Shown piece after piece: positions 1-18,953 of a DNA stretch of 64,000 nucleotides (the stretch's first letter is position 1; every line of letters starts with the position of its first letter). The DNA is from Cognatishimia maritima. Lineage in GTDB: Bacteria > Pseudomonadota > Alphaproteobacteria > Rhodobacterales > Rhodobacteraceae. A model generated the notes under the pieces. It was given only the letters and a program-made list of their open reading frames with translations. It did no database searches and was not told the origin of the DNA. Position numbers and translations under genes: made by a program. The stretch spans positions 396,654 to 460,653 of the forward strand of contig NZ_FQWM01000002.1 in the NCBI RefSeq assembly GCF_900129685.1. Direction: 5' to 3'.

Positions 1-681
1 CCCACGAGCGGTGCCGATCCCTGCCGGACCATACCAGCTCATTTTTGGATGCCAGAATCGATCCAGTTCCATCACCTCAGGCCCACCCTGCGACGGGTAG
101 CGCACAAGGTGCGTCAGCATGTCGAGAATTAACTGACAAGACGCGGCGCTTTCGGCCTCGTTGCGAGGGGCGCTTACCAGCCCGTTCTGCAGCGCGGGCG
201 CAGGTGCCAGCCATTCACGGCCCAAGGAGGGTGCCATCGGCCAAGCGCTGGCTTGCAGCATGACCTCAGGAATGTCCCAGATGGCCTGAACTTCGACGAC
301 CTTACCGTTCTCAAATCGGTAGAACTCGTGGAAGCGCATCGCGACCTGATGGCCCGTTGCCGGGATATCCAACCAGGGCGCGAGAAATGTCCCGGTGTAG
401 TAGCCCGCACAGCCGACCCAATCTGCCCCGTTTATGTCAGGGCCCGCGGCCACGATGTAGTCGCGTCGCTCAACATCGGGCCACGCCGCACTTAACCCGG
501 CGAAAGCGGATTGATAGAAGGCGTCTGGCCCAATCACATCGCCAAATGGATGGCACATGTGCACAATCGCGTCGGCAGCCATGACATCTGTCATCGCTGC
601 CTGAACCTGCTTTGGTTCAAAATCATACAGGGCGCCCCGGAGCGGAGCCAAAAGCGCCTTGTGCTGATTATGTCGATCCAT
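1..681 (-). CDS. NTF2/SnoaL-like two-domain protein (partial, 3' end cut by window edge)
   Basis: An open frame of 227 codons runs from an ATG at 679-681 off the left edge without a stop. A purine-rich AAGAGTG lies just upstream of the ATG. The translation resembles the complete 333-aa protein encoded at 7237-8238: both have an HPF motif near residue 44, a [FW]DIP...MxQA stretch near residue 137, and a WxGPxGIG motif in the second domain (WYGPAGIGTARG at the edge). About 100 residues are probably missing. NTF2/SnoaL-like folds serve as small isomerases, cyclases, hydrolases or hydratases, but nothing here identifies the reaction. It is the last visible gene of a minus-strand operon behind the ABC importer and the HisD-like dehydrogenase, 26 bases after the latter, so it is probably an enzyme of the same pathway. 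Confidence 0.7.
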   Translation of the reverse strand, partial: MDRHNQHKALLAPLRGALYDFEPKQVQAAMTDVMAADAIVHMCHPFGDVIGPDAFYQSAFAGLSAAWPDVERRDYIVAAGPDINGADWVGCAGYYTGTFLAPWLDIPATGHQVAMRFHEFYRFENGKVVEVQAIWDIPEVMLQASAWPMAPSLGREWLAPAPALQNGLVSAPRNEAESAASCQLILDMLTHLVRYPSQGGPEVMELDRFWHPKMSWYGPAGIGTARG

Positions 682-707
682 GGATCACTCTTATGTTGGC
701 CAGAGCG

Positions 708-2039
708 TTACTCGGCTGGTTCCCGAAAAGCCGCTGCTTCGCCGTAGGGCACATTGATGCCACCAAAGCGACGCACGCGGATGTTGCATTGCTCGGCATG
801 GCCGACAAAGCCTTCCAACATGCAAAGTCGCGAGCCGTATTCACCGATCAACGTTGCCGCCTCATCGGTTGTGATCCGTTGGTAGCTGTGGGTCTTCAGA
901 TATTTCCCGACCCAGAGACCACCTGTGTACCGGCCGGCTTTCTTGGTTGGCAATGTGTGGTTGGTGCCAATGACCTTGTCGCCATTGGAGACATTGGTAC
1001 GTGGACCTAGGAACAAAGCTCCGTAGCTGGTCATGTTTTCAAGGAACCAGTCGTCGCGATCTGTCATCACCTGCACGTGTTCGGACGCGATATCATCGGC
1101 GACCTCAAGCATTTCGTCATAGGTGTCGCAGACAATCACTTCTCCGTATTCTTCCCAGCTCACGCGCGCAGTCCCCGCAGTCGGGAGAATGCCAAGAATG
1201 CGGTCAATCTCAGACAAAGTTTCCTCAGCCAGTTTCTTGCTGTTGGTCAGCAAAACGCAGGGGCTGTTGTAGCCGTGCTCGGCTTGGCCCAGCAAATCCG
1301 TCGCGCAAAGTTCGGCATCTGCAGCGGTTTCGTCTGCAATCACCATGGTTTCTGTCGGGCCGGCAAAAAGGTCGATGCCGACGCGACCAAAAAGCTGACG
1401 CTTGGCTTCCGCCACAAAGGCGTTGCCCGGACCAACCAGCATGTGCACCGGATCGATGGTTTCCGTACCGATCGCCATGGCGCCGATGGCCTGAATGCCG
1501 CCCATGACATAAATCTCATGCGCGCCACCCAGATGCATCGCTGCAATAACGGCTGGGTTTGGTTTCCCTTGGAAAGGCGGGGTACATGCGATGATACGCG
1601 GAACGCCTGCAACAGAGGCCGTCGCCACGGACATATGCGCCGACGCCACCATAGGGAACTTGCCCCCTGGAACATAGCAGCCCACGGATTGCACCGGGAT
1701 GTTCTTATGCCCAAGGATCACGCCGGGCATGGTTTCCACTTCGATATCCAGCATGGAATCGCGCTGCGCCTGCGCGAAGTTGCGCACCTGCGCTTGTGCA
1801 AACTTGATGTCGGCCAGCTCGCGCTCGGTCAGTTGCCCCATCAGTTCTTCGATCTGCGCTTCGCTAAGACGGAAGCTTTCCGGAGAATAGTTATCAAACT
1901 TCTCAGACAATTCCCGCACAGCCGCATCGCCGCGCGCTTCGATGTCCTTTAGCGTCGCCTCGACAACGGCGCGTGTCTTTGCATCGTCCTCAGCGCGATC
2001 CGCTTCGGGTTTTCCGCGTTTCAGATATTCGATGGTCAT
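708..2039 (-). CDS. Histidinol-dehydrogenase-family (HisD/HpsN-like) NAD-dependent dehydrogenase
   Basis: A 443-aa protein of the histidinol dehydrogenase family, which oxidises an alcohol in two NAD-linked steps to a carboxylate. Family residues are present: zinc ligands by position Q252 and H255 (LLGQAEHG), D354, and H414 (GFVGHAEQ), plus the catalytic pair E320-H321 in ASEHVQVM and H361 in GTNHTLPT. It is unlikely to serve histidine synthesis. No his genes are nearby, the N-terminus ([14 protein letters not shown]) is not that of biosynthetic HisD, and it sits in an ABC-importer operon between two NTF2-like genes, 11 bases after the upstream one. The family includes HpsN, sulfopropanediol 3-dehydrogenase, but no hpsO or hpsP is visible, so the substrate remains open: a polyol, a sugar alcohol or a sulfonated polyol are all possible. 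The family is secure, the substrate is not. Confidence 0.85.
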
Positions 2040-2050
2040 TACATTAATCC

Positions 2051-2581
2051 TTAGTCTTGAGGGCGCGGAGCGACTTTCTCTCCGCGATCAAATGCTTCCC
2101 AGCCATGGCCGTTGAAAAGATCGACACCCAATTGGGCTGCGACATGGGCGAAGTCCACATTCACCCAGTTGTCCACGATCTTGCCGTCGACAACTTTCCA
2201 AAAGTCCATGTAGCGGATTTCGACCCGCTTGCCGGTTGGGGCGATCCCCAGAAATTCACCACTGTGCGTGGCCTCTTGGCGACCAAAAGCAGCCGCCCAT
2301 TCGCCCATGTATAGGCGCGCTTCGTCGATACAGGTCTTGTCGGAAAACGCCGCTTGGAAGGGGCGCTGCCAGTTGTCCTGAAATTCTTGCAACCCGGTCT
2401 TTGTCCCGCAGCCTTGGTTTCCCATCCAACGGAAACCTTGGGCGAAATACTCACCGATGTCGTCAATGCGATGGTCGTTCAAACCATCCACCATACCCTC
2501 GATCACGGCGCGGGTTTCTTCGGTTTTGCTTAGGTCGGTGTCTCTTGACAGCACGGCCTGTTCTGGGCGAGAGCCTTTCAT
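2051..2581 (-). CDS. NTF2/SnoaL-like (ester cyclase-type) protein
   Basis: A 176-aa cytoplasmic protein without signal peptide. The second half of the chain (about residues 25-150) reads as one SnoaL/NTF2-like alpha+beta barrel: an N-terminal helix, the segment [20 protein letters not shown], and a terminal strand run ending in [11 protein letters not shown]. The GxxGxGT plus [WQ]RPFxxxF pattern matches the second domain of the proteins at 1-681 and 7237-8238, so the three are paralogs and this one is a single-domain version. Its ATG is at 2579-2581; the next gene, the HisD-like dehydrogenase, begins 11 bases after its stop. It is separated from the permease gene upstream by a 133-base spacer that holds a long hairpin. 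Enzymatic activity is not predictable. Confidence 0.75.
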
Positions 2582-2598
2582 GTTGTGTCCTTTTCAGA

Positions 2599-2664
2599 AT
2601 GCCAAGGTAAGTTTTGAAGTAAGGGGGAAGAGGGTAGGATCTACTTCAAAAAATCCCTTGGCAT
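2599..2664 (-). other. Long intercistronic hairpin between permease and NTF2-like genes
   Basis: Two nested perfect inverted repeats form one 66-base structure. The outer arms are ATGCCAAGG (2599-2607) and CCTTGGCAT (2656-2664). The inner arms are TTTTGAAGTA (2612-2621) and TACTTCAAAA (2642-2651). They are separated by symmetric 4x4 internal bulges and closed by a 20-base purine-rich loop. As minus-strand RNA the loop is pyrimidine-rich (CCTCTTCCCCCT), complementary to Shine-Dalgarno-like sequence. It is followed at 2689-2700 by the perfect palindrome CATGGCGCCATG. There is no U-run typical of a terminator, so an RNA processing or stability element is likelier. Confidence 0.55.
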
Positions 2665-2714
2665 CCTGTTGAGCGCCGGATGGCGCCCCATGGCGCCATG
2701 GCGGAAATTCGAAC

Positions 2715-3596
2715 TCATCCTTTGACGGCCCCTGCAGTCAGGCCAGACACGATCTGACGCTGGAAGAAGAGAACCAACACGAAAAGTGGTGCCGTGGCTG
2801 AAACAACCGCCGCAACGGCGAACATCACGTTGCCTTCTTCCAGAGTCGAGCCGAGGAAGCCGGCAATCGCGGGCACCATGGTGCGGTTATCTTCGCTGAG
2901 CAGCATCGAGGTCACGGCAAAGTCGTTGTAGGCCAACAGGAAGCTAAAGAGGCCTGTGGTGATCACGCCCGGCCACATGACGGGCATGATGACATGGCGG
3001 AACGCTTGAATTTGCGTGCACCCGTCGACCCGCGCGCTTTCATCCAAATCCTTTGGGATATTCAAGAAGAAGGAATGTAGCATCCACAGGGTGAAAGGCT
3101 GGTTGATCGCAACAAGCACGATGATCGCGGTAGGCAGTTTCCCCCAAAGGTTCCACTCAAAGAACGGCAGCAGATAGCCCGACACGAGGGTGATGTGTGG
3201 CATCGCGCGGAATACCAGAGCGATCATCAAAAGCCAGAATGCGTATTTATGACCAGAGCGCGCCAGCGCATAGCCACCGAGCGTTCCGAAGGTCAAAGAA
3301 ATGATCACGGTAAAGAACACAACGATCATGGTGTTGATCGTGGCGCGCCAGAACTCTTCCTGGATCCAAGCGCCTTCATAACCTGCCCCGGTGAACGTGC
3401 CGCCGGTTTCAAGCAGTGTACGTGTACCCCAGAGGGCGTTGCGCCAATCGGCTTTGGAAAAGAAGTCGCCTTGCACCTTGAAGGAGCCCCAGAGGGTCCA
3501 AAGGAACGGGAAGGACGCGATCACGACCCACAGCAGAACAAAGGCTGAGGAAAAGATTACGACAGAGCGCGAGGAACGGTTAGCTACAGAAGACAT
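2715..3596 (-). CDS. Sugar-type ABC transporter permease (MalG family)
   Basis: A 293-aa inner-membrane permease of the carbohydrate-uptake-1 type, with six predicted membrane helices and the cytoplasmic EAA-loop DESARVDGCTQIQAFRHVIMP that docks on the ATPase. The reading frame extends upstream, but the ATG at 3594-3596 is the better start: it shares one base with the TAA of the upstream permease (TAATG) and follows AAGGAAAGG, which implies translational coupling. It should form a heterodimer with the permease at 3596-4624 and use the binding protein at 4698-5933 and the ATPase at 6020-7072. Confidence 0.9.
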   Translation of the reverse strand: MSSVANRSSRSVVIFSSAFVLLWVVIASFPFLWTLWGSFKVQGDFFSKADWRNALWGTRTLLETGGTFTGAGYEGAWIQEEFWRATINTMIVVFFTVIISLTFGTLGGYALARSGHKYAFWLLMIALVFRAMPHITLVSGYLLPFFEWNLWGKLPTAIIVLVAINQPFTLWMLHSFFLNIPKDLDESARVDGCTQIQAFRHVIMPVMWPGVITTGLFSFLLAYNDFAVTSMLLSEDNRTMVPAIAGFLGSTLEEGNVMFAVAAVVSATAPLFVLVLFFQRQIVSGLTAGAVKG

Positions 3597-4624
3597 TAGA
3601 CAGCCTTTCCTTTGAAGTCGCGCCAAGTGCGCAGCAGGACGGGTGACAATAGGATCGCCACACCAAGCACGGTCAGCACCGAAGTTGCCGCCGCAGAGTT
3701 GTACCGTATGATGTCGCTGCGCATGTCAGCGAAGATGATGTAAGACAGCGACGGTGCGTTTGCCCCAGCCTTGAAGCCAATGACAGGTTCAAAGACTTTG
3801 AAGTTGTCCATCAGCTGGATCAGCGAGATGAAAACCACCAGCGGCATCAGATGCGGAATCACCACAAATCGGATTTGCTGCCAACGAGACGCACCGTCGA
3901 TTTGTGCGGCTTCCAGAGAGTCCGTGTTGACGGTCTGAAGACCCGCATAGAAAACCACGAAGGCAAAGGGGGCAGAGCTCCAGACGCCGTAAACCATCAA
4001 TGTGATCCAAGTCAGAGCAGGCGACGCCTTCAGCGACAGCTCCGGGTCATCAAAGATGAATTGCAAGGTTTTGCCAATCACACCCTGAGCGTCGATCATC
4101 CAGAACAGGATCAAGGACCCAACAAGCGGTGTGATCATCATGGGCAGAAGGGAAACGAAGATGGTCGGCCCCTTCAAAACTGGCGTCACGCGGTTCACGC
4201 CCAGCGCGATCAACAAGCCAAGAACGATAACAAGCGGGGTCACGATAAATGTGTAAGCAAGCGTAAATGTCAGCGCCTTGTAGAACGGGAGGTTGAAAAT
4301 CTCGCCGAAGAAGTCGCCGAAGCTATCGTTTGTTCGCCAAGCTTCGGCAATTTCTGCCGTCGCAAGGTGACCCCGATCAAAATAGGTGCTTAGCCCGGCA
4401 AACCGGCCAAGGGGCTTCTCGGCGCGCAACTGTTCTGTCGCCTCAGTGTCAACAGAGCTTTCCTGCTTACACCCGAATGGGCCGCAGTTTTCTGTGACGA
4501 CAATAACTTGTTCATGTTCGATGTGCAGCGATTGAACCACCACGGAAACAAGAGGCAGGGCGATGAACAGGAACATCGCTGCCAGACTGGGCAGAATGAA
4601 CCAGAAGAACGTTTTATGGCGCAT
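3596..4624 (-). CDS. Sugar-type ABC transporter permease (MalF family)
   Basis: A 342-aa inner-membrane permease. The first helix (about residues 8-30) is followed by an unusually long periplasmic segment of roughly 80 residues holding a Cys pair (CGPFGC, near residue 48) before the remaining five helices. The EAA loop reads EAAQIDGASRWQQIRFVVIPHL from about residue 240. It is the first permease after the binding-protein gene; its last base overlaps the start of the next permease. The extended loop is reminiscent of the P2 insertion of MalF, which contacts the binding protein. That parallel is inference. Confidence 0.9.
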   Translation of the reverse strand: MRHKTFFWFILPSLAAMFLFIALPLVSVVVQSLHIEHEQVIVVTENCGPFGCKQESSVDTEATEQLRAEKPLGRFAGLSTYFDRGHLATAEIAEAWRTNDSFGDFFGEIFNLPFYKALTFTLAYTFIVTPLVIVLGLLIALGVNRVTPVLKGPTIFVSLLPMMITPLVGSLILFWMIDAQGVIGKTLQFIFDDPELSLKASPALTWITLMVYGVWSSAPFAFVVFYAGLQTVNTDSLEAAQIDGASRWQQIRFVVIPHLMPLVVFISLIQLMDNFKVFEPVIGFKAGANAPSLSYIIFADMRSDIIRYNSAAATSVLTVLGVAILLSPVLLRTWRDFKGKAV

Positions 4625-4654
4625 GTGAAATCCGTCCGCTTCGCGTGGGGTTAA

Positions 4655-4683
4655 GTCAGAGCCAACCGGGCGCTGGCTCTGAC
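4655..4683 (-). terminator. Intercistronic hairpin after the binding-protein gene (attenuator-like)
   Basis: Perfect 10-base arms GTCAGAGCCA (4655-4664) and TGGCTCTGAC (4674-4683) with a 9-base loop, located between the binding-protein stop and the first permease start. There is no strong U-run, so it likely protects the upstream message or causes partial termination, giving more binding protein than permease. Confidence 0.6.
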
Positions 4684-4697
4684 AGAGGTCTTCCTGA

Positions 4698-5933
4698 TTA
4701 GTTCAGGAAGCCTTTTTCTTTTGCAGCTGTGGTGTAAGCCGCTTCGACGTCAGCCAGTGCTTGCTCAGCGGATTCCGATCCTTGTAGGAATTCGTTCAGC
4801 TCTGCGCCCAACGCAGTGTGCATCAGACCCATGAAAGGGATCATTGGATAAGGCTGAGTGTTGCCAGACGCCGTCGCAAAAACGCCTGCCGCCGCCGGGG
4901 TTGGCTCATAGCCATCAACCAGCCAAACTGCCGCGTCGTTATTGGCTTTCACGACGTCTGGGCTGATGCCCTTAACCATCGCGATAAAGCTCGCTTCCGC
5001 GTCTGCATCGCTCACGTTTTTTGCAATTGCGAAACCATCCCACCACAGTGTGGAGGCTGGGACATCGCCGCCACCAACGGTCGGAGAGCTGACCAGCATG
5101 GTGTTGCTGACAACTTCGTCGCTGGAGCCTTCGTCATCCAAGATGCCTGTGCCGCGAGACCCCCAGAGGTGCGCGATTGCGAGATCACCAGATTCCCAGT
5201 TGGCCTGGACCGCGTTAGAGTCAAAGGTCAGGAAGTCCGGGTTGGACAGCTCTGTCAGCGCCTTCAGCGTGTTCAACGCTGCGACACCGGTTTCGTTGTT
5301 GATGTTCGGCTCTGCAGACCCCGGCTTGAAGAACTCACCGCCGTGGCCAAGGAACATGTTCACGAACTCTTCGCCAAGGTTCCAACCAGTCGCACTTGTT
5401 GTCGCAAACGGATGCGCCATGATACCGGCATCTTTGATGGCCTGCGCAACAGCAATCACTTCTTCATAGGTGGTCGGTACTTCGACACCGGCCTGCTCAA
5501 GGATGTCCTTGCGCACAAACAGGTGCTGCGCGTTTGCCATAAACGCCACCGCCATGACTTTGCCGTCGACGGAAATCATCTGGTTCTTAGACAGATGTTG
5601 ACCGTGCTTGGCGATCAGATCGTCCAGCGGACGGATCAGGTCTTCACCAAGTAGCGGAACGATAGCGCCGTTGTTGGTAACCACAACGCTATACTGCGCA
5701 GGGTTCGCGGTCAGCGCTGCAACCTGCAATTCACGGTAGTCTTTATTGAGGTTGCTTTCGACCGTGACGGTATCGGTTGCACATGCTTTTGCGCCGTCAA
5801 CGACCGCCTGGATCGCAGAGAATTCGTTCCCTACGATGTTGATATTTGCGCTTTCGATACCGCAGTCCGCATAGGCTGCAGTACCCATGAAAACGGCGAC
5901 CGCACCGATTGTAGATAGTTTTTGAATAGACAT
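4698..5933 (-). CDS. ABC transporter extracellular solute-binding protein (sugar type)
   Basis: A 411-aa periplasmic binding protein of the bacterial extracellular solute-binding family 1 (MalE/UgpB-like). A Sec signal peptide ends near TAAYA, giving a mature start close to DCGIES. The ATG at 5931-5933 was chosen over an in-frame one 36 bases upstream because AGGGAGA precedes it at normal spacing and the signal peptide starts there. The mature chain has the two-lobe family pattern, including TPAAAGVFATAS near the C-terminus. It lies between the ATPase gene (86 bases upstream) and the permeases. The ligand is unknown; co-occurrence with a lactonase-like amidohydrolase and an alcohol dehydrogenase suggests a sugar, polyol or sugar acid. 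Confidence 0.9.
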   Translation of the reverse strand: MSIQKLSTIGAVAVFMGTAAYADCGIESANINIVGNEFSAIQAVVDGAKACATDTVTVESNLNKDYRELQVAALTANPAQYSVVVTNNGAIVPLLGEDLIRPLDDLIAKHGQHLSKNQMISVDGKVMAVAFMANAQHLFVRKDILEQAGVEVPTTYEEVIAVAQAIKDAGIMAHPFATTSATGWNLGEEFVNMFLGHGGEFFKPGSAEPNINNETGVAALNTLKALTELSNPDFLTFDSNAVQANWESGDLAIAHLWGSRGTGILDDEGSSDEVVSNTMLVSSPTVGGGDVPASTLWWDGFAIAKNVSDADAEASFIAMVKGISPDVVKANNDAAVWLVDGYEPTPAAAGVFATASGNTQPYPMIPFMGLMHTALGAELNEFLQGSESAEQALADVEAAYTTAAKEKGFLN

Positions 5934-6019
5934 ATTTGTCTCCCTGTAGTGGGTCATAAGTCCGGACAAATGACCCGGTTGGCCCTCACTGCATGCGCGA
6001 GGACGTCTTTACGGCCGGG

Positions 6020-7072
6020 TTACTCCCCGATCCGTGCGCCATCGTTCGCATTGAACAAATGGCAAATTTCGTTTGGTACGCTGATCGAAACCATATCGCC
6101 GATTTCAGCCCGGTAGGTCTTGTCAGCTTTGACTGACACAAGTGCGTCTCCGACCCGAACAGAGATCATAGTCGCGTCACCCAGAAGCTCGAGCGTATAG
6201 ATCGGCGCATTGATCTGACCGTTTCCATCACTGGCCAGCGACGCGTCTTCGGCGCGGTAGCCAAGAGTGAGCGGGCCGTCAGGTGCGTTCAGACCTGTGA
6301 TTTTGACATTTGGTGCCGTGAACGTGCCGCCCGACATCGCGCCATCCATCAAGTTCATGGCAGGGGAGCCAATGAAGCTCGCCACAAAGGCGTTGGCAGG
6401 TTTGTCATAGATATCGGTTGGGGAACCGACCTGCTGCACAACTCCGCCCTTCATCACCACAACCCGATCCGCAAGGGTCATCGCCTCGATCTGGTCATGG
6501 GTCACGTAGATCGTGGTGACGGCCAATTCATGGCTCAGGTTTTTGATCTGGGCACGGGTAGAAACGCGAAGCTTGGCGTCGAGGTTGGACAGCGGTTCAT
6601 CCATAAGGAAAACGTTTGGCTCGCGGACAATGGCGCGCGCCAAAGCCACACGCTGGCGTTGACCACCAGACAGCTCTGCAGGTTTGCGATGCAGGAAGTC
6701 GTCAAGTTCCACCATCGCTGATGCGCGACGTACTTTCTCATCATGTGTGGATTGATCGATCCCACGCACCCGCAGTGGGAAGCGGATGTTTTCATAGACG
6801 TTCATGTTTGGGTAAAGCGCATAGCTTTGGAACACCATGGACACATCGCGGTCCTTTGGTTCCAATTCGTTCACGACTTTGCCGCCGATCAGGATTTCGC
6901 CCTCGGTCACATCCTCAAGGCCTGCGATCATACGCATCGTTGTGGTCTTGCCGCAGCCGGACGGACCAAGAAGCACAAGGAACTCTTTGTCTGCAATTGT
7001 CAGGTCAAAATTGTCGACGCCAACGAAACTTCCCCAACGCTTTCCAACGTTGCGCAATTGAATTTCAGCCAT
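6020..7072 (-). CDS. Sugar-type ABC transporter ATP-binding protein (MalK/UgpC family)
   Basis: A 350-aa ATPase with Walker [11 protein letters not shown], signature [10 protein letters not shown], Walker [12 protein letters not shown] and H-loop THDQ, followed by a C-terminal TOBE/OB domain (about residues 240-350). The frame extends another 48 codons upstream through the operator region, but the ATG at 7070-7072 is preceded by AGGGGGACC and begins the canonical [14 protein letters not shown]. It is the first gene of the minus-strand operon and energises the importer encoded by the next three genes. Two palindromes in its leader suggest control by a LacI-type repressor. Confidence 0.9.
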
Positions 7073-7092
7073 TTGGTCCCCCTGAAGGATTT

Positions 7093-7114
7093 TTTTTGCA
7101 TACGCTTGCAAAAA
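7093..7114. promoter_or_regulatory. Imperfect LacI-type operator palindrome
   Basis: Arms TTTTTGCA (7093-7100) and TGCAAAAA (7107-7114) flank the centre TACGCT, with the central CG at 7103-7104 typical of LacI-family operators. It sits 21 bases upstream of the ATPase start codon and shares the TTTGCATACG half-site with the perfect palindrome at 7150-7167. The two centres are 55 bases apart. Confidence 0.65.
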
Positions 7115-7149
7115 CGGTAATGCCCCAAGGTCACTTCTGGCAAGACATT

Positions 7150-7167
7150 TTTGCATACGTATGCAAA
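7150..7167. promoter_or_regulatory. Perfect 18-bp LacI-type operator palindrome
   Basis: TTTGCATACGTATGCAAA is a perfect 18-base palindrome with a central CG step, the hallmark of LacI/GalR-family operators. It lies mid-way in the divergent region between the ATPase (start 7072, minus) and the NTF2-like gene (start 7237, plus), so one regulator could control both arms of the locus. No LacI-family gene is in the window. Confidence 0.7.
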
Positions 7168-7236
7168 TATCAGCAAGACTTGCGAGTCGCCGCAAAAAGT
7201 CACATAACTCAAGCATCGAAAAACAAAGGAAAAACC

Positions 7237-8238
7237 GTGTCCTTCCTCCCCCAAAAGCATCTGGTGCTGAATTTCTACGCAGCGCTCGACGAAACGGACG
7301 CCGAGACAGTTGTTAGCGCTGTCAGTCAGTTCTGCAGCCCGGATTTGCTTTGGCGTGGCTATCACCCGTTCAATGAGATTCGGGGCGCTGAGTCGGTCGC
7401 GACCCGCTTTTGGCAACCTTTAAAAGCCAGCCTGACGGGCATGCAACGCCGCCTCGATATCTTCTTCGCAGGCGACAATATATATGCAGAGCCTGGTGAG
7501 GTCTGGGTCTGTTCCATGGGGCACGTTATGGGGCTCTTTGACAAACCATGGCTTGGTATTCGCCCGACCGGAAAACTGACGTTCCTGCGTTATTCAGCGT
7601 TTCACAAGATCGAAGGCGACAAGATCACTGAAACGGCGATGTACTTTGATATCCCGCATTTCATGGTTCAAGCTGGGCTTTCACCCTTCCCGCCTCAGAC
7701 CGGAGCGCAATTGGTGCAACCCGGCCCACTCATGCACAACGGCCTGCTTCTTGAAGACAACGACCCGGCCGAAGGTCAAAAGACGCTCGCTGTCATTGAT
7801 AAGATGGCCAAAGACCTCGGCCAGTGGAACTCTGGCATGCCACTTGAGGAGGAACTGCGGCGCACGTGGCATGAGGACATGCTGTGGTGGGGTCCGACCG
7901 GTATTGGCGCGACCTACACGATCCCGCGTTACGCGCAACAGCACGCCCGTCCCTTCCGCACGTCCTTTGCCGAACGCAGTAAGACAAAGCACCTTTGCCG
8001 CATTGGTGAAGGACAGTTCGGCGCGTTCTTTGGCTGGCCGAACTTTACCGCCATTCCAACCGGTGGCTTCATGGGGATGCCCGCGACCGGCAAACCTGGC
8101 GAATTCCGCGTAATCGACCTCTATCGGCGCGAAGGGGACAAGCTGAAAGAAAACTGGATCTTCATCGACTTGCTGCATTTCTGGAAAAGTCAGGGCGTGG
8201 ATATCCTTGAACGCACGGTGGGGATCAGCCAAGCATGA
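7237..8238 (+). CDS. Two-domain NTF2/SnoaL-like protein
   Basis: A 333-aa protein read from a GTG at 7237, six bases after AAAGGA. Although the open frame extends 200 codons upstream, that part lies opposite the ATPase gene and is not real. Domain 1 (about residues 1-150) has HPF...RLDIFFAG and [11 protein letters not shown]; domain 2 (about 185-325) has [24 protein letters not shown] and a closing strand [13 protein letters not shown]. Both are NTF2/SnoaL-like, making a tandem fusion. It is paralogous to the proteins at 1-681 and 2051-2581. It overlaps the amidohydrolase gene by four bases (ATGA), implying a coupled enzyme pair. No catalytic residue can be assigned; sugar-lactone, isomerase or hydratase chemistry is possible. 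Confidence 0.75.
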
Positions 8239-9119
8239 GGATCGACGCGCATCACCATCTTTGGGACCTGAAGGCCGTATATTACCCTTGGCTGATGGCC
8301 AAAGGGGAACCCCGTTTTTTTGGCGACCCAGCCCCAATCCAGCGCGACTACCTGATTGACGAATTTACCACGGATGCAAAAGCACACGGGTTTGCCGGCT
8401 CTGTCCATATTCAAGTCGGGGCAGAAAACCCGTTGTACGAAGCACGTTGGGTACAAAGCGTCGCCCAAGCCAACCCAGATTGGCCGCTTGTCCAAGTGGC
8501 CTTCTGCGACTTGACGGCGGACAGCGCAGAAAACGACCTTGATCAGCTGCAGTCACTAACCAGCCTCCGTGGCGTGCGCCAAATCGTCGGCCGCGCACCA
8601 GGGGAAGACGCGCAAAGCGGTACGAACTTTCTGCTCGATGATCCCCGATTTGCAGCCGGGTTAAAGGGGCTGGCGCAGCGCGGCCTTGGTTTTGATTTGC
8701 AACTTTTGCCCGAGTTAATGGAAAAAACCGCAAAGGTTCTGGAACAGGCCCCAGACACCAAAATCGCCCTTTGCCACGCAGGGTCCCCCCATGATCGCAG
8801 CGCCGCAGGGCTGGCGGAGTGGTCCAAGAACCTGCAACACCTTTCCGCCTTGCCAAACGTTGTTTGCAAATTGTCAGGTCTTGGCATGTTTGATCACAGT
8901 TGGACGGCCGAAAGCATTCGCCCAATTGTCGAAACGGTTCTCGAACAATTCGGACCAGAGCGCGCGATGTTCGGCTCAAACTTCCCGGTGGATTCCCTGC
9001 CTGCCACCTATGCTAAGATCGTCGAAGCATATGAGACCCTGATCCCCACAGAGATGCAATCAAAGGTGTTTGCCGAGACCGCGATTGAATTTTATGACAT
9101 CCCGGTTCCGAAGGCATGA
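8235..9119 (+). CDS. Amidohydrolase-2 family protein, sugar lactonase-like (COG3618)
   Basis: A 294-aa TIM-barrel metal hydrolase. The N-terminal metal motif is [10 protein letters not shown] (H6 and H8); further family landmarks are SVHIQVG, a His in IALCHAGSP near residue 180, and the closing MFGSNFPVDS whose Asp (near residue 256) is the catalytic acid/base in this family. Relatives hydrolyse L-fuconolactone, galactarolactones, 2-pyrone-4,6-dicarboxylate or 4-sulfomuconolactone. The 4-base overlap with the preceding NTF2-like gene, and divergence from a sugar-type importer, point to a lactone intermediate in the same pathway. The specific substrate is not deducible. Confidence 0.8.
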   Translation: MRIDAHHHLWDLKAVYYPWLMAKGEPRFFGDPAPIQRDYLIDEFTTDAKAHGFAGSVHIQVGAENPLYEARWVQSVAQANPDWPLVQVAFCDLTADSAENDLDQLQSLTSLRGVRQIVGRAPGEDAQSGTNFLLDDPRFAAGLKGLAQRGLGFDLQLLPELMEKTAKVLEQAPDTKIALCHAGSPHDRSAAGLAEWSKNLQHLSALPNVVCKLSGLGMFDHSWTAESIRPIVETVLEQFGPERAMFGSNFPVDSLPATYAKIVEAYETLIPTEMQSKVFAETAIEFYDIPVPKA

Positions 9120-9243
9120 TCTAAAAACCTCAGCTAACAAGAAAATCCAAAGCGATACTTTACGCGCGAAGCGCCTGTTCAGTAAGGATGTTTGCGAAGG
9201 CAATCGCCCGATCAGTCGTTTTACATAGATAAAGAGTAGCGCC

Positions 9244-10848
9244 TTGGGAAAAGTTCTGAAGAAGCTCTACCTGTTTGCCATGACATTGGCGTTTGCAGGC
9301 ATTTTTGGTTTGATCAGCATGCGCGTTTTCCCGCTCTCTCTGCAAACCAAAGCGATCGTCGGCCCCCTTATTATCCTGCATTTCCTCGTGATGGCGGTTG
9401 CAGTGTTGTTGAAAAAACCGCGGTGGCGTTCCCTGGATATGACCTCAGCTGCGCTGTTAGTTGCAGCGCTCGTGGTCGTGCTGCCGTTTAGCTTCATGAG
9501 CACCGCCTTCGGTGTTGGCGACTTCTCAAGTTTGTTAATCACTTTTGCTGAAAACCGTGCGGGTCAGATGTTTGCGGTCGGTCTCGAAGGGTTTGTCCCT
9601 GAGTTTTTGACCGAAGCGCTGAAGGGGATCGTAATTCTCATCGCAGGGTTTGCGATGGTGCGGTACGTCTCGATGGGGCGCGGCACCGTGATCGTGGCTT
9701 CGCTAGCTCTCTTGCTATTGAACCCTTTGACCTACTTCGCCTTCCGACTGTTTGTGCCGCACCCTGATCAACTGGCGATCCAGCAAGACGTAAAAAATCT
9801 CGCACCAAATATCCTGTCCAAACCAGAGGCGCAGAAAAACCTCGTAATTGTCTACCTTGAAAGCCTCGAACGCACTTATGCGGATTTGCCAATATCAGAA
9901 GCTGCTTTTGCACCTTTCGCAAAGTGGGAAGACCAGGGCTTGGCATTCAAGAATATCCAGCAGTCAAAATCCGTATTCTTCACCGCCGGCGGGCTAGTGG
10001 CGACACAATGCGGCGTGCCGATGCTGCCACGTGGCGTTTTTAACTCACAGAAACGAATTAGAGACGACCTAGACGTTATACCAGAAGAAACAGACTTTCT
10101 GCTTGGCGCGACATGCCTCGGCGATATTTTGACGCGCGACGGATATAATGCGAGCTATATCAACGGGTCAGCGCTTACGATATATTCCAAGGGCGCGTTC
10201 TTCAAAAGCCACAACTATCAGCGTGTGATGGGCTTCGAGTCTTACGAGGGACACAAAACAGAGACGCGCCGCAACGTTTGGGGAATGGATGACGACCTAT
10301 TGTTTGAACGCGTTGAAGCGGAGCTTGCAGCTTTGGCGAGCGAAGGAAAACCGTTCCTCCTCTCCACCCTGACACTTGGAACGCATGGACCAACCGGCTA
10401 CCCTGACGGGACCTGCCGAGACTCTACATTCACTTCAAACAAAATCTTGAATGCCATGGAATGTTCCGCTGGGCACGTCCGGTCCTTGGTCGAGAAGATC
10501 GACAGTTTAGGCCTTTCCGAAAGCACTATTGTTGTGCTGGCTTCCGATCATTTGGCATACCGAAACTCACTCGATGACCAGCTGATGGAGGTCAAAGACA
10601 CTCGACGTAATTATTTCACTGTGCTCGGCGCAGACGCCGCCACCAATCTTCGCGAGGGAACTGCGCTTGATATCTATCCAACACTCCTAGAGCTGCTTGG
10701 ATATGAACTTGAAGGCAACCGGGCGGGTCTCGGGCGATCGTTGATTGGGGAGAGCCCAACGCTTCCGGAAAGCATTGGCGCAGATCGCCTTGAAGAAGCA
10801 ATCCGGTATAACACCGACCTCCAAAAGGCGATCTGGAATATTCCCTAG
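9244..10848 (+). CDS. OpgB/MdoB-like phosphoglycerol transferase (sulfatase superfamily, membrane)
   Basis: A 534-aa protein with about five N-terminal membrane helices (residues 8-170) and a periplasmic alkaline-phosphatase-fold domain. Motifs are YLESLERTY (about 202), TAGGLVATQCGVP (about 246, holding the likely Thr nucleophile), HGPTGYPDG and ASDHLAYRN (about 433, metal Asp-His). This order matches OpgB/MdoB, which moves phosphoglycerol from phosphatidylglycerol to osmoregulated periplasmic glucans, rather than arylsulfatases. The first codon is TTG at 9244, preceded by AAAGAG; an ATG at 9280 would cut into the first helix. No glucan synthase (opgG, opgH or ndvB) is adjacent. It ends 16 bases before the convergent AAA ATPase gene. 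Confidence 0.8.
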   Translation: MGKVLKKLYLFAMTLAFAGIFGLISMRVFPLSLQTKAIVGPLIILHFLVMAVAVLLKKPRWRSLDMTSAALLVAALVVVLPFSFMSTAFGVGDFSSLLITFAENRAGQMFAVGLEGFVPEFLTEALKGIVILIAGFAMVRYVSMGRGTVIVASLALLLLNPLTYFAFRLFVPHPDQLAIQQDVKNLAPNILSKPEAQKNLVIVYLESLERTYADLPISEAAFAPFAKWEDQGLAFKNIQQSKSVFFTAGGLVATQCGVPMLPRGVFNSQKRIRDDLDVIPEETDFLLGATCLGDILTRDGYNASYINGSALTIYSKGAFFKSHNYQRVMGFESYEGHKTETRRNVWGMDDDLLFERVEAELAALASEGKPFLLSTLTLGTHGPTGYPDGTCRDSTFTSNKILNAMECSAGHVRSLVEKIDSLGLSESTIVVLASDHLAYRNSLDDQLMEVKDTRRNYFTVLGADAATNLREGTALDIYPTLLELLGYELEGNRAGLGRSLIGESPTLPESIGADRLEEAIRYNTDLQKAIWNIP

Positions 10849-10864
10849 TAATCGCGCCGCATGC

Positions 10865-12370
10865 TTAGTTCGACCGCCTCTGGTTAGCGGAGACGTTTTT
10901 CCACGCCAAATCGAGCAGATCATGGCTCAACTCTGGCTCTTGATCCAAATAACGACAAGCTGCAAATATGTGGTTCACAAGGAAGCCCGGGTGTGCACCC
11001 GAAGTGATAAACCGGTCGCGTTCGTAGCGCTTTTCATAGAATTCGTCCATGATGTCCGCCTTCCACTCCAATCCGCGCTCATCGCAGACGTCACGGAAAA
11101 TCTGCAAATAGTCTTCGCGGGTTGGGCTTGGTACGTGGATTTTGAAGTAAATCCGCCGCTGTGCCGCGTCATCACCAAGGTCCTCGGGGCGCGTGTTGGA
11201 CGAGAACACAACCAATTGGTCAAAGCTGATTTGGAATTTCTTCCCAGTATGCAGAGAAAGAATATCAAACCCCTTCTCCAAGGGCACGATCCACCGGTTC
11301 AGGAAGCGCTGTGGCTCTTCTTTCTGGCGGCCAAAATCGTCCAAAACAAAAATGCCGCCAAGCGCCTTCAAGTGCATCGGGGCTTCGTAGAAACGCGCCG
11401 ACGCTTCAAACCGCAGGTCAAGCATATCCAATGTCAATTCACCGCCCGCGATGACCACGGGTCTCTGACACAATACCCAGCGGGCATCATATTCACGGGA
11501 GTTCTCAAACTCCTCTACCGGCTGGTGCAATGTTTCGTCGAAGAAACGAATGATCTGGTTCCCGACCAAGATGGCATGAGGGACACTGATCGTATCGACG
11601 AAAGATGACCCAAGTGCTTCGGCCAATGACGTCTTTCCGTTGCCAGGTTCTCCGTAAAGCAGCATGGAGCGACCGGAGTTCGCCGCAGGGCCAAGTTGAG
11701 CCTTCAGGATCGAAGGAATAACAAGGTGCGAAAAGGCTTTGTCCAGTTCGGCGCGATGGACCTCTTCATGCTTAATCGATTGACGCTGCATCTGCGCTTC
11801 GAATTGCTCCAACGTCACCGGAGCAGGCCCGACGTATTGTGAGACCATCTGCGCATCCAGCGCCCATTTTTTCCCGAGATCCGTCAGGCTATAGCGAATG
11901 TCACTTTTTACATCTGCGCTTTCCAGACCCTGAGATTCAATCAGCATCAGACCCGTCATTTCCTTAAGGATCTGGCGGCAAACGAGTTTGGGGAGCTTGA
12001 TAATCGCAGCAATCTGGGCGGGCGTCATTGTCCCGCCTTCATGCAAAATCTTTGCCGTCAGGTTGATGACAAAAGACATCGACAGGCCGGTTTCCTCGAC
12101 CGTTTTCGGGGAGGGACCCGGCAGGAAATTGACTTTGCGAGTTTCCCTTACCTCGGGTGCCGGTGCCACGGACGCACTGTCACCTGCGTTAGGCACAACG
12201 GGCACTGCCCCTTCTTCAGAGGCCGTCACCTCTTCTTTCGCGCCCGCTTCGTTAAGCGTTTCTTCTTCGGCGGTTTCAGGAACTGCAACCTCTTCGCTCG
12301 GCGCCGGTGCGGTCTGATCTACCTTGATGTCAGGTGATTTCTTTTTCTTTCCGCCCAGCCCAAATACCAT
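10865..12370 (-). CDS. AAA-family ATPase divergent from the tad pilus operon
   Basis: A 501-aa cytoplasmic protein: a charged, Pro/Glu-rich disordered N-terminus (residues 1-95), a winged-helix-like segment (about 95-185), then an AAA ATPase with Walker A GEPGNGKTS (about 240), Walker B IFVLDDFGRQ (about 343) and a sensor-like FSSNTRPEDLG. It is transcribed away from tadD across a 313-base intergenic region. Its ATPase type (MoxR/helicase-loader-like, with a separate regulatory N-domain) suggests a remodelling or regulatory role linked to pilus biogenesis, but this is inferred only from the neighbourhood. Confidence 0.75.
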   Translation of the reverse strand: MVFGLGGKKKKSPDIKVDQTAPAPSEEVAVPETAEEETLNEAGAKEEVTASEEGAVPVVPNAGDSASVAPAPEVRETRKVNFLPGPSPKTVEETGLSMSFVINLTAKILHEGGTMTPAQIAAIIKLPKLVCRQILKEMTGLMLIESQGLESADVKSDIRYSLTDLGKKWALDAQMVSQYVGPAPVTLEQFEAQMQRQSIKHEEVHRAELDKAFSHLVIPSILKAQLGPAANSGRSMLLYGEPGNGKTSLAEALGSSFVDTISVPHAILVGNQIIRFFDETLHQPVEEFENSREYDARWVLCQRPVVIAGGELTLDMLDLRFEASARFYEAPMHLKALGGIFVLDDFGRQKEEPQRFLNRWIVPLEKGFDILSLHTGKKFQISFDQLVVFSSNTRPEDLGDDAAQRRIYFKIHVPSPTREDYLQIFRDVCDERGLEWKADIMDEFYEKRYERDRFITSGAHPGFLVNHIFAACRYLDQEPELSHDLLDLAWKNVSANQRRSN

Positions 12371-12683
12371 CGCTCATCACCCCATTAAGTTGTTTTCGCT
12401 TGCGCCAAGCTTAGACGCAATGCACGCCAATTTTCACCAGATTAATCAATATAACAAGCAAACCCAATATGTTTATTGGCACAGGGACGCGCTGAAAACC
12501 ATTTGGACAAACCCCATCAAAACAGCGTTATCACAGAGAGATTGTATCAAAAAAACCGCAACTCTGGGGCTTCTAAGGGTCAGTTTGAGTTTAAAGTGGT
12601 TTCCGGAGCAACTTTATTATAATACAGCTACGGTAGGTTTAAGCTTCGAGAAAAACCGATATCAATTCGGGTGGGACAGTAAA
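12371..12683. promoter_or_regulatory. Divergent intergenic region with candidate tadD promoter
   Basis: This 313-base region between the AAA ATPase and tadD is AT-rich. A perfect -10 hexamer TATAAT lies at 12618-12623, about 60 bases before tadD, but I see no good -35 at proper spacing. No coding potential, repeat or palindrome stands out. The tadD open frame technically runs back through it, but has no leader or ribosome site there. Confidence 0.35.
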
Positions 12684-13193
12684 ATGCGTCTAGTAGCAGC
12701 AGCGGCAGTGATTTTGGCCCTCGCAGGGTGCGAAGGATTCAACGGTTCATTTGACGATGGCGAAGGGTCCGTCTTGGACAACTCCAATCGTGCTTACTAT
12801 CGCGACGATGAGCCTCTTGTTCAGGCAAAGGTGCAATTCCTAGAAGGCAACTATGGCCGGTCTTACCGTCTCTTTGACAAAGCGCTGGATGTAACACCGG
12901 CTGACCCGGCGGCGCTGCTTGGATATGCAGCATCCGCGGACATGCTGGGTCGCTTTGATAAAGCTGACCGCGCGTATCAGAAACTGCGCCCAATCATTGG
13001 TAACCGGATCGAGTTCCACAACAACTATGGCTACTCCCTCCTTTTGCGGGGTGACCTCGTTGGCGCTCGTCAGCATTTCTTGATTGCCTATGAAATGGAC
13101 CCAAGCAACGAACGGGCTACAAACAATCTGGAACTGCTCCGCAATTCCGTGAACTTCCCGAAACGGGCTCCGGGCGACCTGCGCGGCATCTAA
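12684..13193 (+). CDS. tadD: TadD-like TPR lipoprotein of the Tad/Flp pilus
   Basis: A 169-aa lipoprotein. The signal peptide MRLVAAAAVILALAGC has a clear lipobox (LAGC, Cys16). The mature part carries about three TPR motifs (residues 50-150), for example LEGNYGRSYRLFDKALDVTPADPAALLGYA. TadD is an outer-membrane pilotin-like TPR protein of Tad systems. The ATG at 12684 was chosen because the lipoprotein signal starts there. It heads the plus-strand tad locus and is followed after 13 bases by the prepilin peptidase. Confidence 0.85.
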   Translation: MRLVAAAAVILALAGCEGFNGSFDDGEGSVLDNSNRAYYRDDEPLVQAKVQFLEGNYGRSYRLFDKALDVTPADPAALLGYAASADMLGRFDKADRAYQKLRPIIGNRIEFHNNYGYSLLLRGDLVGARQHFLIAYEMDPSNERATNNLELLRNSVNFPKRAPGDLRGI

Positions 13194-13206
13194 CGGGTAA
13201 GAACGC

Positions 13207-13710
13207 GTGTCCGCGTTAGGCATCCTTGAAATTTTGATCGAATTGGCGTGTGCAGCGCTATTGCTGCGCATTGCGGTGCGCGATTTCAAAACGCTCACCG
13301 TGTCCAATGCCGACAACCTTGCGCTCCTCGGGCTTTACCTACTTTGGGCGGCAACACGCGGGTTCCAAGATTTCTGGACCGACCTGTTGATTGGCGGATT
13401 GCTGTTTGGCGTAGCGCTGATCATGTGGCTTTTGCGCACGTTGGGTGCGGGAGATGTAAAGCTTTACTTCACACTCGGCATGCTGATCGGCATCAAAGCC
13501 TCGGCCTTGTTTGTGGTCATATTGCTGGTGCTTTCATTCCTTTTTGCGGCCATCTTGCGTTGGGTAAAGCTGCCAGACGCTGATCAAGCGACATCTCCGA
13601 CCAAATGGCGCCTCCGCGAAATTCAGATCACGGGACGTTTACCCTATGCCGTGGTCATGGTGCTAGCCGCCGCCCTACCTTTGGCGCTAAGATTTGCAGG
13701 GGCAGCTTGA
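13207..13710 (+). CDS. cpaA: Type IVb prepilin peptidase (TadV/CpaA)
   Basis: A 167-aa polytopic membrane protease of the A24 family, which cleaves the leader from Flp pilin and the TadE-like pseudopilins. The two catalytic aspartates are visible: the Asp in AVRDFKTLTV (near residue 24) and the one in the GxGDxK motif LGAGDVKLYF (near residue 81). The start is GTG at 13207. It is short, lacking the methyltransferase domain of PilD, as expected for the TadV/CpaA class. Confidence 0.9.
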   Translation: MSALGILEILIELACAALLLRIAVRDFKTLTVSNADNLALLGLYLLWAATRGFQDFWTDLLIGGLLFGVALIMWLLRTLGAGDVKLYFTLGMLIGIKASALFVVILLVLSFLFAAILRWVKLPDADQATSPTKWRLREIQITGRLPYAVVMVLAAALPLALRFAGAA

Positions 13711-13783
13711 GAAAGCGCGCCCAATATGAGATGATTGCGCCAATTTCTTAAAGACTTACATGTGCGTGCGGAAAGGTAGCTCC

Positions 13784-15505: not shown

Positions 15506-15800
15506 TTCGGGAATCGCGTCTGCTCAGACACACAGTGAATTCGAGAGTGCGCGCACTTAAAAACACCCTATGGTTGCGGCCATGCATTGAATGTGGCGAC
15601 AATTTCCTAAAATCGAGAGCATTGTTCATGTAAATCAAGGCGATAGTATGAAAAATGTGTTGAAAGTTTGACAGCAATAAGGCCTAAGCCTACTCTCGAA
15701 TTGCTACTAAACTAACCTTTTGGGTAGGGGCAGAGGGCGATCATATCGCAGGTTGTGTGGCATAAATTTCTGCGTTTGTGACGCGTGTTAGGAGTACAAA
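15506..15800 (+). promoter_or_regulatory. Leader region of the flp pilin gene with candidate sigma-70 promoter
   Basis: TTGACA at 15668-15673 and TACTCT at 15691-15696 are spaced by exactly 17 bases, placing a transcript start near 15703 and a 5' leader of about 100 bases. The pilin start at 15801 follows AGGAG. This would let the major pilin be expressed independently from the rest of the tad genes. Confidence 0.45.
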
Positions 15801-16013
15801 ATGAATATTACATCTTACCTCATGGGCGTCGTTGCACGCTTTAAATCTGAAGAAGACGGTCTGGCACTGACCGAATACCTGATCCTGTTGGGTCTGCTGA
15901 CAGCGGCAGTTGTTCTGGCAGTTCAAGCATTCGGCGTGAACTTGGGCAATGCATGGCAAGCATGGTCTGATTGGATCACACAATTGGACGGCCCGCCATC
16001 GCTGCCATCCTAA
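15801..16013 (+). CDS. flp: Flp-family type IVb major pilin
   Basis: A 70-aa prepilin. The leader of 20 residues ends in EEDG, followed by mature LALTEYLILLGLL: cleavage after Gly20, with Glu at +5 and Tyr at +6, the canonical Flp motif. A single hydrophobic helix (about 21-43) forms the filament core, followed by a short polar tail ending in PPSLPS. It is processed by the prepilin peptidase at 13207-13710 and assembled by the cpaF/tadB/tadC motor. It has its own candidate promoter and a terminator immediately downstream, consistent with high-level monocistronic expression. Confidence 0.95.
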   Translation: MNITSYLMGVVARFKSEEDGLALTEYLILLGLLTAAVVLAVQAFGVNLGNAWQAWSDWITQLDGPPSLPS

Positions 16014-16046
16014 ACAGCACAGAGCTGGCTTATAGTCGGTAACTAG

Positions 16047-16080
16047 AAGCGTGGCACGACTGCATCGTGTCACGCTTTTT
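16047..16080 (+). terminator. Rho-independent terminator of the pilin gene
   Basis: A 13-base stem with one G-U pair: AAGCGTGGCACGA (16047-16059) against TCGTGTCACGCTT (16065-16077), a five-base loop, then a run of T. It separates flp from cpaB. The 143 bases downstream carry a possible -10 TATAGT (16139-16144) for cpaB, but its -35 is weak. Confidence 0.85.
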
Positions 16081-16222
16081 CAATTCTTGCGCGCAATATT
16101 TTGTCGCAATCAACTAGCCATCACCGGCGAATTCTTGCTATAGTGATGGAAAGATTACGGGTTACACCCTTGACAAAAAAGGGAGATAGCCCGCGTGCAG
16201 TTTCTGAAAGGGTCCGTCTCAG

Positions 16223-17350: not shown

Positions 17351-17365
17351 GGTGAGGGCAGAGCA

Positions 17366-18778: not shown

Positions 18779-18953
18779 GTCCGTTGTCGCCACCTTGCTT
18801 GCCTGCCTGACATTGGCAGGCTGCTCGGCAGAGTATATGAACAATTGGGATCGTATCTCGACGCGCTCGGGCAACGCAAACCAAGCAAACACGGCCATTA
18901 TGGAAGTGGAGCCGACCAACACTGGCGACGTCTCCACCAACGTTGGCGGCTAA
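18756..18953 (+). CDS. Short lipoprotein in the tad operon (CpaD position)
   Basis: A 65-aa lipoprotein: the signal MASSRKSKSVVATLLACLTLAGC has a lipobox (LAGC, Cys23), leaving a mature peptide of only about 43 residues rich in Asn, Thr and Ser. It overlaps the secretin gene by 23 bases and occupies the place where other alphaproteobacteria carry cpaD (around 200 aa) or an OmpA-like gene. It may be a reduced CpaD or secretin pilotin. I do not recognise any domain, and its short length makes the call tentative. Confidence 0.6.
   Translation: MASSRKSKSVVATLLACLTLAGCSAEYMNNWDRISTRSGNANQANTAIMEVEPTNTGDVSTNVGG

Follow-up and report, generated by a model that had tools for sequence, protein, structure and literature searches.

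A putative LacI-controlled catabolic locus rich in NTF2-fold proteins in Cognatishimia maritima, with mycosporine-like amino acids as candidate substrates

Our study concerns a stretch of 64,000 nucleotides from Cognatishimia maritima (hereafter the window; C10:396654-460653 in a 3.28-Mb genome), at the start of which we identified a locus of 16 genes. The locus is cut by the window edge and continues for another ~6.8 kb upstream (L009, minus strand). It comprises genes for an RraA-type aldolase, an alpha/beta-hydrolase, a MetE-like protein, a bicupin, a LacI regulator, a short-chain dehydrogenase/reductase (SDR), an HpsN-like dehydrogenase, three NTF2/SnoaL proteins (NTFb, NTFc, and NTFd), and a four-gene sugar-type ATP-binding cassette (ABC) importer, with a divergent arm that encodes a 333-amino-acid (aa) NTF2 protein (NTFa) and an amidohydrolase. 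This set probably constitutes a coregulated catabolic operon that ends in an aldolase. As its substrate we tentatively propose the mycosporine-like amino acids (MAAs), the sunscreens of algae; the locus may serve the LacI-controlled catabolism of an amino-acid-conjugated, O-methylated C7 ring compound, for which MAAs are the most likely identity. With somewhat more reserve, we suggest that it could represent the first genetic pathway of MAA breakdown, present in Roseobacter-type and other plankton bacteria, in which tandem NTF2 proteins would remove the amino acids and the 4-deoxygadusol ring would be converted to pyruvate and oxaloacetate by a core of dehydrogenase, cupin, and aldolase.

Conservation and shared regulation of the locus

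Relatives of NTFa were collected by a pattern-based scan with one genome per species, in which 115 were found and 80 were kept. Going by the record titles, most of them belong to the Roseobacter group, and others to Kiloniella, Oceanospirillaceae, SUP05/Thioglobus, SAR116, Granulosicoccaceae, and further lineages; many are bins from metagenomes and could be mislabelled. Judged by NTFa, the nearest named relatives are Cognatishimia, Shimia, and Ruegeria. The gene set is kept, largely in order, in records labelled as alpha- and gammaproteobacteria. Its genes co-occur and co-localise, and the locus recurs whole or in part in the Roseobacter group, Kiloniella, Oceanospirillaceae, and SUP05-type records. 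This conservation is more than chance. An earlier note on this DNA, made from the letters of the window, had called for a neighbourhood comparison of the 333-aa protein, and the genes are indeed co-conserved across its relatives.

Gene frequencies were counted in the 40 loci that extend at least 9.5 kb on both sides of NTFa, at an identity of at least 35%. Most of them have the importer (permeases in 36 and 35 loci, solute-binding protein in 35, ATPase in 34), the HpsN-like dehydrogenase (35), and NTFc (34), followed by LacI (31), NTFb (30), NTFd (28), and the SDR (28); the amidohydrolase is present in 17. The low counts of RraA (6), cupin (4), hydrolase (2), and the MetE-like protein (0) say little, because in the window's gene order these genes lie at or beyond the edge of the flank. 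Four of the 40 loci (L030, L031, L039, and L085) carry NTFa and none of the HpsN-like protein, NTFc, and the solute-binding protein, and in a SAR116 record of 9 kb (L075) NTFa is accompanied by no more than the amidohydrolase and an SDR match that is weak (25%).

At a wider scale, 22 of the 398 genomes sampled from the window's phylum, its own genome counted, match a profile at E 1e-40, which included some paralogs and thus counts NTFc-like proteins too. The corresponding figures are 15 of 240 in the class of G285 at E 1e-45, where many matches have 31-41% identity and are perhaps paralogs, and 6 of 368 in the class of G007 at E 1e-60. On plasmids, NTFa matches were found in 23 of 72,556 records, which include plasmids of Ruegeria, Vibrio, and Ensifer as well as one archaeal genus, Halobellus. 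On an Octadecabacter plasmid (L096), annotated insertion-sequence transposases and an integrase flank and interrupt the locus, which is a sign of mobility.

Co-occurrence was determined in 198 genomes of the window's family, one per genus. The HpsN-like gene is present in 99 genera (E 1e-150), the cupin in 79 (E 1e-60), and NTFa in 52 (E 1e-70), the weakest two of which (37-45% identity) may be paralogs. Of the NTFa genera, 51 of 52 have the HpsN-like gene, as do 77 of the 79 cupin genera; the Fisher values for these associations ignore relatedness. The HpsN-like and cupin genes lie within 15 kb of each other in 69 of the 77 genera that have both, the other eight having them on different contigs. 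The HpsN-like gene and NTFa do so in 36 of 51, with five genomes in which they are more than 850 kb apart on the same contig and ten in which they are on another contig. NTFa is unlinked in these 15 genomes, yet the HpsN-like gene is found in 51 of the 52, so that NTFa nearly always accompanies the core. In one genome (G577, L170), the HpsN-like gene and its neighbours occur twice in tandem, ~8.9 kb apart, by duplication or as an assembly artefact.

By the listed ends of the open reading frames (ORFs), the minus-strand genes overlap or lie at most 135 bases apart, with the exception of a 179-base gap between the cupin and NTFd. The promoter region that the earlier note had seen as shared with the importer was found as a divergent promoter of ~165 bp that holds two operator-like palindromes 55 bp apart (Table 1), and the LacI protein of the locus presumably binds them. 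Of 90 loci, 63 have a site upstream of NTFa that agrees with the motif in 12 or more of 16 positions, at a density of 2.54 per kb versus 0.037 per kb elsewhere in the same loci; the window itself supplied the motif, and loci of related genomes do not count as independent cases. The canonical AANCGNTT operator gave no signal (8 of 90 loci), and the window's own palindrome was used in its place. A genome scan with a longer pattern and up to two mismatches yielded 13 matches versus 2 for the control. Beyond the divergent promoter, the single place with at most one mismatch is a near-perfect copy at C10:225170 (L201:10170) with no gene of the locus set near it; the adjacent ORFs read, without a family search, as tricarboxylate-transporter-like and MBL-fold proteins. 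A second regulon locus there was dropped, as the only match in a comparison with the locus genes and their partners was one of 25%, to the query for inositol dehydrogenase.

Enzyme families and the proposed route

The ORFs described in the earlier note are present where it placed them, and its family assignments agree with Pfam (SnoaL/SnoaL_2, Histidinol_dh, and Amidohydro_2). It had described a catabolic locus around a sugar-type importer, which holds as to type; it saw only part of the locus, seven genes (NTFd and six others) lying upstream, outside the window. By sequence comparison, the NTF2 proteins are true paralogs, as had been proposed for the three in the window: NTFa and NTFc share 31% identity (E 6e-55), NTFb and NTFc 36% (E 2e-20), and NTFd and NTFc 29% (E 1e-5). 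NTFa, NTFc, and NTFd are tandem-domain proteins, and NTFb has a single domain. The common signature attributed to the first three is only partly borne out, since each motif occurs in two of them and no motif set is common to all: GxxGxGT is found in NTFb and NTFc (GPTGIGAT in NTFa), RPFxxxF in NTFa and NTFb (IPFLNAM in NTFc), and HPF in NTFa and NTFc, not in NTFb. NTFd has none of the three. The structure model of NTFa (predicted local distance difference test, pLDDT, 92.5; 48 sequences) confidently predicts two domains. The polyether epoxide hydrolases MonB and Lsd19 ranked first in its comparison, at a root-mean-square deviation (rmsd) of 16-18 that indicates a different arrangement of the two domains, and single domains fit IdmH, AclR, SnoaL, AknH, and limonene epoxide hydrolase at an rmsd of ~3-5.

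The dehydrogenase has the HisD/HpsN fold (Pfam Histidinol_dh, E 5e-132) and passes the histidinol dehydrogenase model TIGR00069 (424.5 bits, cut-off 243.8); its nearest solved structures are dehydrogenases of 2,3-dihydroxypropane-1-sulfonate (DHPS; E 8.5e-113). Residues were considered conserved when kept in at least 97% of orthologs, which applies to E320, H321, D354, and H414, so that the catalytic Glu-His pair and the Zn ligands are present. According to a study of the Cupriavidus DHPS dehydrogenase, the motif GRY(A/S)H ends in the sulfonate-binding His126 and has GSAPL as its HisD counterpart (PMC11382572). At this position, 63 of 64 aligned dehydrogenases have GKFPM and one has GKYPM, neither of the two described motifs. 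The replacement makes a substrate other than DHPS likely, and DHPS itself is, on these alignments, unlikely; the Lys that also contacts the sulfonate is retained (GDK), which counts against a differing substrate. A role in histidine biosynthesis was rejected because the motif is GKFPM and not the GSAPL of HisD.

Among the other enzymes, the RraA-type protein contains the RraA-like Pfam domain (E 9e-16, 58.9 bits, cut-off 24.5) and conserves R146 and D147 in 21 orthologs; an Arg-Asp pair is typical of the RraA-like aldolase superfamily. The MetE-like protein matches Pfam Meth_synt_2 (55.8 bits, cut-off 21) and conserves H243, C245, E277, and C343 in nine orthologs, the His, Cys, Glu, Cys pattern of Zn ligands in MetE-like thiol alkyl transferases. 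The alpha/beta-hydrolase conserves S62, D182, and H210 in 13 orthologs. In the cupin, H76, H78, and E82 are conserved, and its model is nearest to quercetin 2,3-dioxygenase, then to 3-hydroxyanthranilate and salicylate dioxygenases, among others (template modeling score ~0.47, rmsd ~8-13). The importer ATPase passes the UgpC-family model NF008653 (446.5 bits, cut-off 432), consistent with a sugar-type system. The SDR is KduD-like, below the cut-off. The amidohydrolase has conserved His/Asp residues of metal-site type and falls far short of the L-fuconolactonase model NF052480 (123.8 bits, cut-off 400).

The computations show which genes make up the set, how it is conserved, that the promoter motif recurs, and to which families the enzymes with their conserved catalytic-type residues belong; the route proposed here is inferred in all its steps. 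After import by the ABC system, NTF2-fold proteins, NTFa foremost, together with the amidohydrolase and in some variants an amidase, would release the amino-acid side groups to leave a 4-deoxygadusol-like ring; taken by itself, the gene set would also allow the NTF2 proteins to carry out a rearrangement here. The HpsN-like dehydrogenase would oxidise the ring CH2OH, adjacent to the tertiary OH, to COOH; the bicupin would use O2 to cleave the ring between the keto-enol carbons; and the MetE-like protein and/or the alpha/beta-hydrolase would remove the O-methyl group, as ether or methyl ester. The resulting 4-carboxy-4-hydroxy-2-oxoadipate (CHA) would finally be split by the RraA-type aldolase into pyruvate and oxaloacetate. 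The core of MAAs, 4-deoxygadusol, has a CH2OH and an OH on C5, with a CH2 group on either side, plus a 2-methoxy-1,3-dicarbonyl, and CHA is the substrate of RraA-fold CHA aldolases. With its CH2OH oxidised and its C1-C2 bond cleaved, 4-deoxygadusol would correspond carbon for carbon to CHA, or to a methyl ester of it were the methoxy group retained. Dunlap and Shick, as cited in a review (PMC3083659), suggested that Vibrio harveyi removes the hydroxyamino acids from shinorine and porphyra-334 by hydrolysis.

Variant loci and competing substrates

The genes that accompany the core vary. Of the 48 genomes with the HpsN-like gene and without NTFa, 26 were inspected, and six carry amidases of one family (L146, L147, L152, L157, L174, and L182), AtzE-like in L147 and under the cut-offs there. 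Five of these six loci (not L157) have a second HpsN-like gene, which shows GR(F/Y)PL in seven of the eight ORFs listed, the remaining one being partial; two pairs of these ORFs overlap. Another locus (L018) combines amidase, second HpsN-like gene, and NTFa, and in L064 NTFa is accompanied by an amidase match at 32%. A front end that varies in this way is compatible with the entry of several related conjugates into a single core. L147/L168 and L152/L169 are paired entries among the amidase variants. In an Oceanospirillaceae bin (L050), an L-serine ammonia-lyase follows next after NTFa, at ~250 bases (TIGR00720, 704.9 versus 345.1 bits), and in Vibrio europaeus (L098) and in three genomes that belong to one genus (L139, L166, and L167) a serine dehydratase lies three genes from NTFa, across a divergent promoter from a major facilitator superfamily (MFS) transporter-NTFa-porin-LacI array. 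Sarcosine-oxidase neighbours in V. pelagius, which probably form a separate glycine-betaine cluster, were not used.

Several observations weigh against MAAs as the substrate. The link to amino acids is suggestive only, since among 114 neighbours of NTFa surveyed by family (selected from 275 listed) serine dehydratase appears just twice, besides MTTB three times and mixed families; no other family familiar from amino-acid breakdown was seen among the 25 census families examined of 125. At the cut-off used, 48 of the 99 genera with the HpsN-like gene are without NTFa (30 with the cupin, 18 without it). The aldolase reaches only 21.5 bits against the LigK/PcmE CHA aldolase model TIGR02798 (cut-off 304.5). 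The bicupin model is of moderate quality (pLDDT 81, eight sequences) and also matches oxalate decarboxylases and seed vicilins, and the position that usually provides the fourth metal ligand is an invariant Arg. The LacI regulator and the importer belong to sugar-handling families, and the scheme assigns no firm role to the amidohydrolase, to the SMP-30 protein that replaces it in L100, or to the SDR. Finally, the O-demethylase and dioxygenase genes of the Halobellus locus, which together with its aldolase would otherwise speak for the scheme, may belong to a separate aromatic pathway.

A branched or cyclic sugar substrate is almost as good an explanation as MAAs. By the same operon logic, another branched or cyclic polyol, such as a methylated cyclitol, a branched-chain sugar acid, or another C7 cyclitol, would have its CH2OH oxidised and the tertiary 4-hydroxy-2-oxo acid split by an RraA-type or HpcH-type aldolase, a possibility that we rate only slightly below MAAs and that is favoured by the sugar-type importer, the LacI regulator, and the KduD-like SDR. 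An inositol 2-dehydrogenase (409 versus 355 bits) adjoins NTFa in L030, members of the same gene cluster take this place in L031 and L041, and an HpcH/GarL-like aldolase, below cut-offs, occurs in L100, where RraA is not listed. A polyol alone explains neither the serine ammonia-lyase and amidase partners nor the tight linkage of a bicupin with a dioxygenase-like fold. The earlier note had favoured a small polyol or sugar acid whose oxidation yields a lactone or acid; the amidohydrolase would then open the ring, and the NTF2 proteins would isomerise or hydrate the product. The distant relationship of the amidohydrolase to L-fuconolactonase and the annotated SMP-30/gluconolactonase at its place in L100 agree with this, yet we consider it improbable: it offers no explanation for the aldolase, cupin, MetE-like protein, and hydrolase, and these upstream genes point to C-C cleavage, methyl loss, and a terminal retro-aldol step instead. 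A simple lactone pathway was rejected because the lactonase-type gene, far under its cut-off, is not constant among the relatives.

The Halobellus genes would also fit degradation of a methoxylated, catechol-like aromatic, with NTF2 proteins acting on ring-derived acids. All of them score below their model cut-offs: the DesA-like O-demethylase reaches 470 of the 800 bits required (432 of 580 for the LigM model), the catechol-2,3-dioxygenase-like protein 248 of 320, and the HpaI-like aldolase 135 of 369. The V. europaeus transporter beside NTFa best matches aromatic-acid symporter models, far below their cut-offs. We give this alternative a low probability, as a DesA-like gene occurs outside Halobellus in only one of the loci compared (L009-L183), namely L011, where over 6 kb separate it from NTFa; both importer and regulator are sugar-type, and we know of no place for an HpsN-like CH2OH oxidation in the familiar catechol routes. 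Least probable is catabolism of DHPS or another sulfonated polyol through HpsN, as the earlier note had suggested for testing. The nearest dehydrogenase structures favour it, and so does the SDR of the locus, HpsO of the DHPS pathway being an SDR according to one report (PMC11131964). The idea was weakened, and in our analysis rejected, by the missing sulfonate-binding His motif, and no sulfite-releasing or sulfonate enzyme is found among the family matches of the 16 locus genes.

Other arrangements around NTFa were also seen. The haloarchaeal version (L095, Halobellus limi plasmid, 2298-20986) combines the O-demethylase-, catechol-dioxygenase-, and HpaI-like genes with five genes for ester cyclases and one for a MetE-like protein. 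A choline-dehydrogenase-like GMC oxidoreductase, represented by 13 ORFs with identities as low as 33%, has its gene end directly before NTFa in six loci (L045, L051, L055, L058, L063, and L087); no HpsN-like gene was called in their available DNA, and the oxidoreductase might substitute for it there. MTTB-family genes lie close to NTFa in L045, L051, L063, L085, and L087 (SUP05/Thioglobus-type, other gammaproteobacterial, and Planktotalea records); neither these nor the oxidoreductase genes entered the proposed scheme. The features of the locus are given in Table 1.

Table 1. Coordinates of the locus in the window or, where indicated, in L009 (window position = L009 position minus 12000).
Feature	Position	Strand	Remark
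NTFc, tandem NTF2/SnoaL, 350 aa full length	1..681 in window (5' 681 bases); complete L009:11629-12681, remainder L009:11629-12000	-	Pfam SnoaL/SnoaL_2
HpsN/HisD-like NAD dehydrogenase, 443 aa	708..2039	-	Pfam Histidinol_dh; GKFPM replaces HpsN GRY(A/S)H
NTFb, single-domain NTF2/SnoaL, 176 aa	2051..2581	-	Pfam SnoaL/SnoaL_2
ABC permease 2, BPD_transp_1	2715..3626	-	Pfam; true start probably ~3596
ABC permease 1, BPD_transp_1	3596..4624	-	Pfam
Extracellular solute-binding protein, SBP_bac_1	4698..5969	-	Pfam
UgpC-family ABC ATPase	6020..7072	-	ORF open to 7216; start ~7072, not 7216, placed by family match, which begins at residue 49
LacI-type operator-like site TTGCATACGCTTGCAA	7096..7111	no strand	palindrome
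LacI-type operator-like site TTGCATACGTATGCAA	7151..7166	no strand	perfect palindrome; 55 bp from TTGCATACGCTTGCAA
NTFa, tandem NTF2/SnoaL, 333 aa	7237..8238	+	Pfam SnoaL/SnoaL_2; confident two-domain model
Amidohydrolase_2 protein	8235..9119	+	Pfam Amidohydro_2; start overlaps NTFa stop
SDR	L009:10868-11632	-	outside window
LacI regulator	L009:9837-10883	-	outside window
NTFd, fourth NTF2 paralog	L009:8840-9904	-	outside window
Bicupin	L009:7692-8660	-	outside window
MetE-like protein	L009:6541-7674	-	outside window
Alpha/beta-hydrolase	L009:5852-6544	-	outside window
RraA-type aldolase	L009:5155-5904	-	outside window

Significance and relation to known systems

The earlier note could name no known pathway for this set, and among the matches listed from the open-licence full-text literature, preprints excluded, we likewise recognised no description of the locus or of MAA-degrading genes; the passages of PMC9870897 and PMC10675870 that were consulted offer nothing that could be tied to it, and a term search of PMC10130141 gave no match. 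The HpsN-like gene is present in half of the sampled genera of the family, and parts of the locus occur in Oceanospirillaceae, Kiloniella, and SUP05-type records, a broad marine distribution that makes a common marine compound the probable substrate. Its turnover would then be hidden behind the current labels 'ester cyclase' and 'histidinol dehydrogenase', and, if the substrate is indeed an MAA, these genes would be markers of sunscreen turnover in the sea.

Parts of the locus resemble known systems. HpsN, the DHPS 3-dehydrogenase of Cupriavidus and Ruegeria, is of the same fold family as the locus dehydrogenase and has the same catalytic Glu-His pair, whereas here the sulfonate-binding motif is replaced and the 16 genes include no sulfonate genes. 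With the protocatechuate-4,5/gallate lower pathway (LigK/GalC), which ends in a CHA aldolase, the locus would have the RraA-fold aldolase reaction as a common end step; the other genes of that pathway differ from the present set, and the aldolase is far under the LigK cut-off. L-fucono-1,5-lactonase belongs to the same amidohydrolase 2 family as the locus amidohydrolase, which has the metal-site-type residues and scores below the lactonase cut-off. The SnoaL/AknH polyketide cyclases, limonene epoxide hydrolase, and the tandem-domain MonB/Lsd19 have the NTF2 fold in common with NTFa, at an identity of just 9-21%. These relatives are mostly biosynthetic enzymes, whereas here four paralogs are found within an importer locus; to our knowledge, several paralogous NTF2-fold proteins within one catabolic locus are unusual.

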